Positions 40,312 to 61,637 of a stretch of DNA of 64,000 bases are shown here, one piece after another. Made by a program: the position numbers and the translations under genes. How positions within the stretch are numbered: position 1 is the stretch's first letter; each line of letters begins with the position of its first letter. The notes under the pieces were generated by a model that saw nothing but the letters and a program-made list of their open reading frames with translations, ran no database searches and was not told where the DNA came from. The stretch comes from Colwellia sp. 39_35_sub15_T18 (GTDB lineage Bacteria > Pseudomonadota > Gammaproteobacteria > Enterobacterales > Alteromonadaceae): assembly GCA_002162675.1 (NCBI GenBank), contig MAAE01000007.1, forward strand, positions 186,001-250,000, written 5' to 3'.

Positions 40312-40470
40312 AAGGCACTCTTTAAATAGACTTGCCGCTATTATCCATCCAAGAAAGCAAGGTGACAATCCTTACTTACTAACTTTTTACTTGTTAATTT
40401 TTACTTGCTAACCATATGATGCTCGCGTTAGAATCAGCTTGGTTTTGTTAACACAGTTAGCAATACAAAA

Positions 40471-40551
40471 CTTGTCGGAGTGCCAAAGGCTGAGATCGCG
40501 TAAGCGGGATCCGTATAACCTGATCAGATTAATATCTGCGTAGGAAACAAG
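40471..40551 (+). promoter_or_regulatory. TPP (THI-box) riboswitch
   Basis: Canonical THI-element parts occur in order: P1 strand CTTGT, the GGAGTGCC, the CTGAGATCGCG core, CGGGATCC, AACCTGATCAGATTAATATC, TGCGTAGGAAACAAG closing P1 (CTTGT/ACAAG). It lies 88 bp before thiC. Binding of thiamin pyrophosphate should shut off the thi operon, by terminator or by hiding the thiC ribosome site. Confidence 0.95.
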
Positions 40552-40623
40552 AAAGAGTACTAGTGCTTACCGCCTAGAAAAAGCTCTTTTTGCCATAAGC
40601 TCCGCCTGTTTTTTTAATTTTAA

Positions 40624-59496: not shown

Positions 59497-59850
59497 ATGA
59501 AAAACCCAAGCATTCCTTTTCAAACCATAGACTGGAAAAATGTGCCGCGCACTGAACATAAGGGAGAAACAGGTACTGCCTATTGGCAAACCATGCAATT
59601 TGCAGGTTTACGAGTTAGATACGTAGAGTATTCAAAAAATTATAAAGCCGATCACTGGTGTGAAAAAGGACACATAGTGTATTGCCTACAAGGTGAAGTG
59701 ATTAACGAACTTAAAGATGGCACAACATCAACGTTAAATCCGGGTATGTCGTATATTGTTTCTGACGATTTAAGCTCTCATCGCTCAATTACTGAACATG
59801 GTGTGCACTTGTTGATCATTGATGGCGACTTTTTAAAGTTGAATGCCTAA
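59497..59850 (+). CDS. DHCW-motif cupin protein
   Basis: 117 residues, a single cupin. The name-giving motif is in YKADHWCEKGHIVYCLQGE, where DHWC and KGH provide the metal ligands, and LNPGMSYIVSDD closes the barrel. Reaction unknown. It ends 61 bp before the terminator of the minus-strand sRNA candidate. Confidence 0.82.
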   Translation: MKNPSIPFQTIDWKNVPRTEHKGETGTAYWQTMQFAGLRVRYVEYSKNYKADHWCEKGHIVYCLQGEVINELKDGTTSTLNPGMSYIVSDDLSSHRSITEHGVHLLIIDGDFLKLNA

Positions 59851-59910
59851 CAAATATAAGCGGGTTGGATTGAAGTAAAATGAAATTGAAGTAAAGTGAA
59901 ATACTACCCA

Positions 59911-60009
59911 TAAAAAAACCGATGATATTTCTAATAAGAAAAGTCATCGGCATATTAGCTATGGGGAAAGCTAGAATAAAAATTATTACAATAAGCGTTC
60001 GTTAGGAAC
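59911..60009 (-). ncRNA. Candidate FNR-activated small RNA
   Basis: No reading frame fills the 764-bp gap. On the minus strand a TATAAT (60016-60021) with TTTACT 18 bp upstream (60040-60045) predicts a start near 60009. The RNA would run about 99 nt to a strong terminator (CCGATGA/TCATCGG stem, then TTTTTTTA at 59911-59950). It carries a second hairpin with loop UUCCCCAU (stem TAGCT/AGCTA, 59956-59973), a C-rich loop typical of seed regions that pair with ribosome sites, and AU-rich single-stranded spacers fit for Hfq. A perfect FNR box lies upstream. Confidence 0.6.
59912..59950 (-). terminator. Minus-strand intrinsic terminator
   Basis: On the minus strand CCGATGA, an AT-rich loop with a further CTTTT/AGAAA-type pairing, TCATCGG and then TTTTTTTA. 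It is directed away from the DHCW cupin and towards lower coordinates; it cannot serve that gene. It is 665 bp past lipA, too far to be its natural end. Confidence 0.75.
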
Positions 60010-60072
60010 AAAGTAATTATAGAGTAAGCACTCTATAAAAGTAAAGGGAAATAGTATAAAAACTCTATTTTT

Positions 60073-60086
60073 TTGATCTAGATCAA
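60073..60086. promoter_or_regulatory. FNR box
   Basis: TTGATCTAGATCAA is a perfect match to the FNR consensus TTGAT-N4-ATCAA. It is centred about 70.5 bp upstream of the predicted start of the minus-strand RNA, near the usual class I spacing of 71.5. No plus-strand gene lies within 460 bp downstream that it could serve. Confidence 0.7.
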
Positions 60087-60555
60087 TTTTCACCCATTTT
60101 GACTTATGTGGCTCGTCACAAATAATGAGAAATGCGTCACACGATGAGAAAATTTAACATTTAAGTTACACCTGAGAAAATTTTTGTAACTCGTCAACGA
60201 TCCAATAAGGTCAGCAAAGAGACGAAAGAAGACCTTAGCCTTGGCTTATCTAGCGACATTTGAACCGATGAAAATCAGCCCTGCGTTAGATAATAGAATT
60301 GTTCTAAATTTCATCAGGAATCTATAAAGTCAAAAATTCTAATTTGATTAGAAAATACCAAAGCGGATATTAGATTAATATGATTTTAGGTATTAAATCT
60401 ATGGCGGTAAGGGGCACTTAGTGCCTTATAACAATGCAGAATATTCACATTCAAAACATAGGAAAAAATTGTAACTATACAATTATTAAAATAAAAATCA
60501 CTTAATACTTAATTCAATTTATCAAACAAGCTATGAGGATGGTTAAATGAAATTA
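60087..60555. other. Non-coding stretch with nothing further recognised
   Basis: AT-rich, with many stops in all frames. A 57-codon plus-strand frame at 60547-60720 has a fair AGGA site but lies antisense over the lipA end and shows no family features; it is not called. Confidence 0.5.
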
Positions 60556-60593
60556 GTACACAAGAAAGGACACAAATTATGTGTGTTGTGTAC
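60556..60593 (-). terminator. Inverted repeat after lipA
   Basis: GTACACAA (60556-60563) and TTGTGTAC (60586-60593) are perfect arms; inside, ACACA and TGTGT pair too, giving a nested hairpin 22 bp past the lipA stop. The T-tract on the minus strand is weak (TAATTTCATTT). Confidence 0.5.
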
Positions 60594-60614
60594 TCGTCAT
60601 TTCAATCTATTGAT

Positions 60615-61637
60615 TTACTTAACCTCTTCACCAGCTGCTTGTTTATCGGCATGGTATGATGAACGAACCAACGGCCCACAGGCTGCATGCTCAAAGCCCA
60701 TTTTTACTGCCTCTTCTTGAAACATATCAAAATCATCAGGGTGAACATAACGTTCTACGGGTAGATGGTCTTTACTTGGCTGTAAGTATTGTCCAATAGT
60801 AAGCATTGTTACACCATGACTACGCAAATCACGCATTACTTGCAATATTTCGTCGTTGGTTTCACCTAAGCCAACCATGATGCCTGACTTAGTGGTAACT
60901 GTTGGATTTGCCTCACCGAATTTTTTTAATAAATCTAAAGACCATTGATAGTTAGCGCCAGGACGTGCCTTGGTGTATAAACGCGGCGCAGTTTCTAAGT
61001 TATGGTTAAATACATGCGGAGGATGCTGATTTAATATTTCTAGCGCTCTGTCCATGCGACCGCGAAAATCGGGTACTAAAATTTCTACTTTAGTGTTGGG
61101 TGCTTGCTCACTAATTTCTCTAACACAATCAGCAAATTGTTGTGCACCACCATCACGTAAATCATCACGGTCAACTGAGGTGATGACTACATAGCTTAAT
61201 GGCATACCTTTTAAACTTAATGCAAGTTTTCTTGGTTCATCTTTGTCTACAGCTAATGGACGGCCATGACCAACGTCACAAAATGGACAACGGCGAGTAC
61301 AAATGTCACCTAAAATCATAAAGGTAGCTGTGCCATGATTAAAACATTCAGATAAATTAGGGCAAGAGGCTTCTTCACAAACAGAATGTAAATTATGCTT
61401 ACGTAAGTTAGCTTTGATTTTATCAATTCGTTCACTACTACGAGGTAATTTTATTCGTAACCAACTAGGCTTACGCAACATGCTCTCACGAGTTGAAGTC
61501 ACTACTTTAATTGGAATGTGTGCCATTTTATCGGCGTCACGTAATTTGGTGCCAGGGGCAACTTTAGTTGACCTTTTTGTGGTATTAGCCGCAGTATTAG
61601 TTGCGGCATTTTTAATGGTAACGTCATTATTTGGCAT
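60615..61637 (-). CDS. lipA: Lipoyl synthase
   Basis: 340 residues. Radical-SAM enzyme that inserts two sulfurs into octanoyl groups on E2 and H proteins. The radical-SAM motif is CTRRCPFC; the auxiliary cluster is [12 protein letters not shown], both complete, and the C-terminal SSYHADKQA includes the conserved Ser. The N-terminal 30 residues are low-complexity and may be spacer. It overlaps the lipB remnant by 11 bp. Confidence 0.95.

Follow-up and report, generated by a model that had tools for sequence, protein, structure and literature searches.

A conserved small RNA gene of cold-sea Colwelliaceae, very probably one of two siblings with different promoter switches

Background

FnrS of E. 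coli and its relatives (Rfam RF01796) is an sRNA that has a gene of its own, preceded by an FNR site and closed by a terminator. The polA-engB interval (polA-spf-engB) is the locus of Spot 42 (spf), and duplicated sRNAs with a common pairing region are exemplified by OmrA/OmrB and PrrF1/PrrF2. In Aliivibrio, the sRNA VSsrna24 is placed 262 nt downstream of spf, is ca. 60 nt long and is called limited to Vibrionaceae in the available part of its description (PMC3295665). Extracts further attribute to it a cAMP-independent glucose repression and a rise under AKI conditions (PMC3295665, PMC13250501). As described in the accessible text of two articles, ErsA of Pseudomonas aeruginosa is a polA-engB sRNA that is raised when oxygen falls, acts with Hfq and is transcribed by sigma-22 (AlgU/T) (PMC8575079, PMC8395346). 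In the open-access literature, as far as the searched texts extend, neither a description of the RNA analysed here in Colwelliaceae nor a characterised sRNA named for cold marine bacteria of the Colwelliaceae type was found.

The window analysed here is a stretch of 64,000 nucleotides from Colwellia sp. 39_35_sub15_T18 (contig MAAE01000007.1, positions 186,001 to 250,000), for which an initial annotation had proposed an FNR-activated sRNA with FnrS as its parallel. Comparison across genomes indicates that it very probably encodes a conserved, uncatalogued regulatory sRNA of cold-sea bacteria, one of two siblings with different switches. The reading as an FNR-regulated trans-acting sRNA is well supported and such an RNA is of a known kind; what is new is the sRNA family, the sibling pair with different sensors and their common, unexplained operator.

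Results and discussion

A free-standing sRNA gene between converging genes

The sRNA signals sit on the minus strand of a 764-bp gap (59851-60614) that is flanked by a DHCW-motif cupin gene on the plus strand (NF038084) and by lipA on the minus strand (TIGR00510). This gap had been called empty and proves to hold short open frames only; since it separates converging genes, a leader or a 3' UTR is excluded as the origin of the sRNA. The FNR box, the TTTACT-18-TATAAT promoter, the CCCC-loop hairpin and the terminator are all present on this strand where the initial annotation had put them (Table 1).

Table 1. Predicted features of the sRNA gene and its promoter in the window (a dot marks a site given without strand).
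Feature	Positions	Strand	Remarks
FNR box TTGATCTAGATCAA	60073..60086	.	Centre ca. -70.5; exact pattern match
op1, upstream palindrome copy TAGAGTTTTTATACTA	60052..60067	.	Centre ca. -50.5; 2 mismatches to TAGAGTNNNNACTCTA
-35 element TTTACT	60040..60045	-	18-bp spacer to -10
op2, promoter palindrome TAGAGTGCTTACTCTA	60020..60035	.	Between -35 and -10, overlaps -10
-10 element TATAAT	60016..60021	-	Promoter scan
Class A sRNA gene, predicted transcript ca. 98 nt	59911..60009	-	Homologues by BLAST and cmsearch, same genus and other Colwelliaceae
5' hairpin GUUC-CUAAC-GAAC	59997..60009	-	Fold
Central hairpin UAGCU/AGCUA, C-rich loop UUCCCCAU	59956..59973	-	Fold; likely pairing site
Intrinsic terminator, stem GCCGAUGA...UCAUCGGU plus U tract	59911..59951	-	Fold

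The 5' end of the transcript (ca. 60009) was set from the -10 box. Read from there, the predicted RNA comprises a GUUC/GAAC hairpin, a conserved single strand (UUGUAAUAAUU), a central AGCU/AGCU hairpin and the terminator, the stem of which runs from 59951 to 59918 and is followed by a U run reaching 59911. The folding energy of -23.8 kcal/mol is clearly non-random (z = -5.7). The terminator, which has a long and interrupted hairpin apex, was not reported by the terminator scan. No Rfam family reaches its threshold for this RNA, and the sole gathering-score match of Rfam in the window is a TPP riboswitch (RF00059, 73 bits) at 40466-40563 on the plus strand.

Statistics on the single sequence say little. 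The 2-kb region holds 7 promoter-like sites vs 7.9 in shuffles, which is not above chance; the exact FNR pattern occurs once in the 64 kb vs 0.16 expected, with at least one copy in 14 of 100 shuffles, and its frequency is at chance level when one mismatch is permitted. Such signals are near chance, and it is the comparison across genomes that decides. Weak statistics of this sort are what speaks for promoter-like, box and terminator signals having arisen by chance in AT-rich DNA; the comparison has already refuted this view, through conservation across 18 genera and compensatory changes in the RNA (see below), and leaves it a negligible probability.

Two classes of homologues in Colwelliaceae

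BLAST with the 191-nt stretch gave a match in all 39 genomes of the same genus, mostly at two places in each. Matches covering much of the stretch were called class A, to which the window locus belongs, and those spanning chiefly the -10 region, the loop and what lies between them class B. Class A was found in 35/39 genomes, the other four having no class A match; where copies of both classes occur on one contig, they are separated by ca. 0.6 to tens of kb. Reading of the same-genus loci covered 34 genes of class A, all with a terminator, and 36 of class B; omitted were L043 (class A, terminator not found and no T run within the 170 nt examined), L066 (apparently a chance hit within coding sequence) and the second match of G029. 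The loop is CCCC in each of the 34 class A RNAs, while class B has CCUC in 30/36 and CCCC in 4/36. Alignments were made of 30 of the 34 class A sequences (A1, without the near copies L024, L025, L028 and L068) and of 29 of the 36 class B sequences (A2).

A class A covariance model (R1) matches 66 of 196 genomes, representing 18 of the 52 genera of the GTDB family, and 54 of these 66 carry two or more copies. A pattern scan of named genomes gave 88 stretches; among the matches listed, 78 of 80 are from Colwellia, Cognaticolwellia, Litorilituus, Thalassotalea, Thalassomonas or assembled genomes of Colwelliaceae/Alteromonadaceae, and the listed records from Arcicella and Nanoclepta were taken for misbinning or chance. 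Across homologues, the class A RNA measures roughly 84-111 nt and has three hairpins, the terminator standing at the end. Tandem class A copies within 0.3-0.6 kb were seen in L127 (three) and L128 (two); the promoter palindromes are decayed in two of the three L127 copies.

Compensatory changes are confined to the terminator, with 32 two-sided cells vs 10.1 in shuffles and two-sided changes in 5 of 8 pairs among 30 sequences, the number of such pairs being not above shuffles (277/500 reach it); 93.1% of all cells are paired vs 18-50% when the partners are slid. The 5' hairpin has one-sided variation in three of its four pairs and two-sided variation in none. In the central hairpin, 4 of 5 stem pairs and most of the loop are invariant among 30 sequences, so that covariation speaks neither for nor against its pairing; that it hardly varies points to selection on its sequence. 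Conservation is the decisive evidence that this sRNA gene is real.

For other genera of the family, 41 rows were compared (the fetched L092, L094, L099, L101, L102, L104 and L109 were excluded); they were divided into 26 class A and 15 class B rows by whether the RNA contains CCCCA. This criterion puts at least L130, a locus near polA with a HexR-like box, in the wrong class and says little about L119, which has an odd loop.

FNR-like and HexR-like boxes distinguish the two promoters

The class A promoter is retained throughout the genus: TTTACA or TTTACT at an 18-bp spacer is found at 34/34 loci, with TATAAT (24), TATAGT (7), TATACT (2) or TACAAT (1) as -10. An FNR-like box (no more than 2 mismatches of 10), centred at -69 to -74, precedes 28 of these 34 genes, against an expected background of 0.011 per locus, estimated over the other positions of the 200-nt upstream region. 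It was found at that position in 0/36 same-genus class B loci and, in other genera, in 0/26 class A-type and 0/15 class B-type rows. The genome of the window encodes Fnr (L332; NF008365, 410 bits vs a cut-off of 228), with CX2CX5C near the N-terminus (CQNCSISELC). A second Crp-type helix-turn-helix match in this genome (L333, C42:184540-184764) has two in-frame stops; a gene near it looks like that of a cbb3-type oxidase.

These results support the earlier proposal: the sRNA has a gene of its own, and within the genus an FNR-like box is conserved at a fixed, class I-like distance. The absence of box, promoter and terminator from close relatives, named beforehand as the sign of an error, was not encountered within the genus. 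The proposal of an FNR-activated RNA stands as far as the conserved box and the presence of Fnr are concerned; it had missed the sibling pair. The box is missing from that place at 6/34 class A loci, and four genomes of 39 have no class A match, so that the RNA does not depend on an FNR input. Control by FNR is unlikely to be ancestral or to be the sole input: in other genera the box is found in 0/26 class A rows and an unrelated palindrome, TAGAGT-N4-ACTCTA, in 24/26. It would be an addition at the level of the genus rather than the defining feature of the family.

Class B in the same genus mostly has its own TTG-type -35 with a 17-bp spacer. At ca. -50 it carries a HexR-like box (no more than 2 mismatches of 12) in 30/36 loci of the genus and in 14/15 rows of other genera, vs 0/34 and 5/26, respectively, for class A. 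The HexR motif is TGTAATTAAATTACA, and an upstream HexR site goes with activation according to the part of the source available (PMC11906056). The class B promoter probably answers a different signal, that of HexR and central carbon metabolism.

A palindrome common to both classes

The promoter palindrome op2 is the sole exact copy of TAGAGTNNNNACTCTA in the entire genome of the window. Allowing 2 mismatches of 12, it occurs in 34/34 class A and 35/36 class B loci of the genus, a count that is partly built in since the pattern used to anchor the -10 box includes the right half of op2, and in 24/26 class A and 12/15 class B rows of other genera (36/41); this bias affects neither the left half nor the rows from other genera. 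Three control windows gave 0, 0 and 1 matches over all sets. The upstream copy op1 (no more than 3 mismatches) lies at -49 to -53 in 33/34 same-genus class A loci and in 1/26 class A rows of other genera, 22/26 of which have it at -38 to -42; in class B it was found in neither the genus (0/36) nor the other genera (0/15). The distance between op1 and op2 is ca. 33 bp in the genus and ca. 22 bp elsewhere, that is three and two helix turns, as would be expected for one protein binding on one face. The position of op2 is that where a repressor would sit. No description of the TAGAGT-N4-ACTCTA motif was found in the literature under the several spellings searched.

It might be supposed that the palindrome over the -10 box belongs to the RNA as an additional 5' hairpin, with TATACT at 60058-60053, for example, directing a start farther upstream. 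RNA with a perfect inverted repeat can indeed fold in this way, but the TATAAT-type -10 with TTTACA/T at 18 bp is kept at all 34 class A loci, class B of the genus mostly has a TTG-type -35 of its own at 17 bp, and other families have this palindrome in front of another promoter, all of which makes this very improbable. A binding site in DNA is the reading followed here.

Exact copies of the palindrome occur between coxB and lexA in at least 11 loci of the genus (L284, L310, L312, L313, L314, L316, L317, L318, L319, L321 and L322). In all 11 coxB was confirmed, L310 matching TIGR02866 (coxB) and TIGR00498 (lexA), and at 8/11 an FNR-like box with one mismatch lies within ca. 60 bp of the palindrome; the exceptions are L316 and L318, where the FNR-like box has three mismatches, and L284, where there is none. 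Among the matches listed, an exact palindrome also stands ca. 30 nt upstream of hemerythrin-domain genes (PF01814) in L294 and L295, and a TAGAGTAATAACTTTA-like site (in the ACTTTA form) ca. 450 bp upstream of hisG in L283, L285, L298, L299, L303 and L328, L283 having two tandem copies. The oxidase and the hemerythrin fit a respiratory theme, hisG not obviously so. Copies just behind groEL or between unrelated genes (L297, L315, L320, L323 and L324) look like terminators or chance and were set aside. In the f6 genus, exact TAGAGTNNNNACTTTA occurs in 19 rows from 11/14 genomes, and 4 of the 10 inspected are at the sRNA promoter.

This distribution raises another reading of a real sRNA, in which the regulator of TAGAGT-N4-ACTCTA exerts the main control and the effect of the FNR box in this genus is a modifying one, minor or even repressing. 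The palindrome is near-universal in same-genus promoters of both classes and stands before probable homologues in other families (see below), and of the sets compared only class A of this genus has the FNR box. Against it, the position of the FNR box varies by no more than a few bases and lies upstream of the two palindromes, close to class I, where an activating site would be expected; we hold a palindrome-led promoter to be unlikely and retain activation by Fnr with the palindrome as a further input.

Relation to the Spot 42 locus and to described sRNAs

Neither FnrS nor Spot 42 membership survived the model searches. FnrS had no match at gathering score in the window, nor any up to E 10 in 59850-60620. 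Spot 42 (RF00021) is above its cut-off in 0/39 same-genus genomes, with nothing up to E 10 in 59850-60620. Weak Spot 42-like matches in the genus (the best three at E 6e-6 to 1e-3) were set aside; the top one begins at a stop codon, that of a gene resembling fkpA, and looks like a terminator.

Gene neighbourhoods suggest a link of the family to the Spot 42 locus. In other Colwelliaceae, engB is near 13/26 class A rows and polA near 12/15 class B rows; in the same genus, engB is near 14/34 class A genes and ubiE near 34/36 class B genes (flanks mostly of 0.5-1.5 kb in both comparisons). The g52 genomes L126, L128 and L132 have class A between polA and engB, and the window locus has neither gene nearby.

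For comparison, 51 Spot 42-type loci were read from other families of the order and from one other genus of the window's family; engB is present in 49. Behind the Spot 42 match and upstream of the sRNA start, a palindrome TAGAG[TC]-N4-[AG]CT[TC][TC]A occurs in 24/51 loci, distributed as 13/14 in f6, 4/4 in f25, 3/3 in f15, 2/2 in f10, 1/3 in f20 and 1/1 in the other genus of the window's family. It is absent from the remaining 27/51 (f21 12/12, f18 9/9, f9 2/2, f12 1/1, f20 2/3 and f6 1/14). A C-rich AGCUU...CCC loop and a terminator follow the palindrome in 21 of the 24, and the phrase CUUGUUGAAUUUUAGCUUCUCCCC is nearly constant in f6 RNAs. Palindrome-bearing loci of f10 and f25 are L254, L255, L258-L260 and L278; the f25 RNA has a UUCCC loop.

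Two covariance models were compared, R2 for Colwelliaceae and R3 for 18 RNAs of the spf-engB interval (f6, f15, f20 and f1), the latter without Colwelliaceae. R3 matches the sRNA in 39/39 Colwelliaceae loci given to it, L014 only at E 0.4 and L023 at 0.16; 43 of its 45 matches are on the sRNA, the others being a clear chance match and one at L130:264-365. Conversely, R2 matches 18/18 other-family RNAs at E 5e-5 to 0.075, with six further matches at E 0.48 or worse. Much of both scores derives from the terminator, and a terminator-free profile is weak, its best E being 0.35 in one direction and 0.068 in the other, where 20/24 matches are on the sRNA, 19 of those 20 in one family (L344 repeats L267). 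Homology beyond Colwelliaceae rests for this reason on loop, palindrome and synteny together, which make common descent of the Colwelliaceae sRNA and the spf-engB-interval RNAs of other families quite likely. The f25 RNAs were not recovered by R3.

L227, from another family, carries Spot 42 and a probable homologue side by side; of the three weak R2 matches outside the family it alone was borne out, L225 and L226 looking like terminators. Among 369 genomes searched when R3 was extended to the class, 8 from other orders scored 30-36 bits, most sharing the terminator alone, so that whole-genome R3 scores below ca. 36 bits are not evidence by themselves. In L371, from another order of the class, a hairpin with a UAGCUCCCC loop and a terminator adjoins engB and may be a distant relative.

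The resemblance to FnrS lies in a stand-alone, terminator-ended gene with an FNR site upstream; class A differs by the additional palindrome and the sibling gene. The parallel drawn in the initial annotation holds in that FnrS was said to be unrelated in sequence, which the model searches agree with; the closest relatives seem instead to be sRNAs of the Spot 42 locus. Class A and B of other Colwelliaceae often lie near engB or polA, the genes of the Spot 42 locus, and differ from Spot 42 in sequence; a link to carbon control is likely for class B. Like OmrA/OmrB and PrrF1/PrrF2, class A and B are duplicated; unlike them, the copies carry different sites, FNR vs HexR-like. In function and place ErsA, going by its description, is a parallel, and its transcription by sigma-22 sets it apart (PMC8575079, PMC8395346). 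VSsrna24 of Aliivibrio salmonicida and Vibrio is likewise a second sRNA of the spf-engB interval and, at ca. 60 nt, is shorter, according to the part of its description at hand (PMC3295665).

Identity with VSsrna24 deserves separate mention, class A then being the Colwelliaceae form of that glucose-repressed Aliivibrio sRNA. Probable homologues occupy the same interval in other families, and the glucose repression and AKI rise given in the extracts would fit control by carbon and oxygen (PMC3295665, PMC13250501). On the other side stand the ca. 60 nt of VSsrna24 and, in the part of its description available, its restriction to Vibrionaceae (PMC3295665). The palindrome, moreover, is lacking from 12/12 f21 loci, and R3 finds nothing at C-rich stretches picked by eye in five of them. 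The f21 loci we guess to be Vibrionaceae. At C-rich, sRNA-like stretches of f21, which are candidates and not the published VSsrna24 sequence, R3 had no match in 11 loci among 27 sources and R2 none in 5. Taken together, such an identity appears improbable, and a Colwelliaceae family probably belonging to the polA-spf-engB group is preferred.

Candidate targets and proposed mechanism

The pattern GGGGAAAG-N1-10-ATG gives 12 rows in the genome of the window vs 3 for the reversed pattern. Two of the 12 look like real translation starts, that of a GMC oxidoreductase gene (L355) and that of L358, presumably a murG-like gene. Duplex energies at the two starts are better than 286/300 and 300/300 shuffles, both having been chosen for complementarity; as candidate targets they are only a lead.

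Comparison establishes that the promoter is conserved, that the RNA has three hairpins and a terminator at its end, and that the conserved promoter sites are of three kinds. The steps proposed beyond this have decreasing support in the order of FNR activation, the palindrome regulator and loop pairing with mRNAs. Low oxygen would activate Fnr, which would bind at ca. -71, recruit polymerase and activate transcription in class I geometry; a dimeric regulator would bind TAGAGT-N4-ACTCTA at op1 and op2, adding a second condition and tuning the same promoter. The RNA, probably with Hfq, would then use its UUCCCC loop and the conserved single strand beside it to pair with G-rich ribosome-binding sites of mRNAs, the translation of which it would lower. 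Class B, with mostly a CCUC loop, would act on an overlapping set of targets under a carbon signal, probably through HexR. Taken whole, with FNR, palindrome and pairing included, the explanation of 60009-59911 (minus strand) as class A of a trans-acting sibling pair of Colwelliaceae, probably of the polA-spf-engB group, is likely.

Conclusions

As a tentative joint reading, somewhat doubtful as it stands, the polA-engB interval may be an old home of sRNAs controlled by respiration and carbon, in which a duplicated sRNA would have replaced Spot 42 in Colwelliaceae. The copies would have gained FNR and HexR inputs, respectively, and kept one pairing loop, and both would stand, with coxB and the hemerythrin genes, under an undiscovered TAGAGT-N4-ACTCTA regulator spanning several families.

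For cold marine bacteria, the analysis provides an sRNA family absent from the catalogues, together with a calibrated structure model, and what may be a clear instance of a duplicated sRNA with each copy re-wired to a sensor of its own, by which oxygen and carbon signals would be tied to one RNA tool. It also exposes a strongly conserved 16-bp operator whose protein is yet to be named; should other families use the same protein, it would regulate an sRNA next to Spot 42 across several bacterial families.
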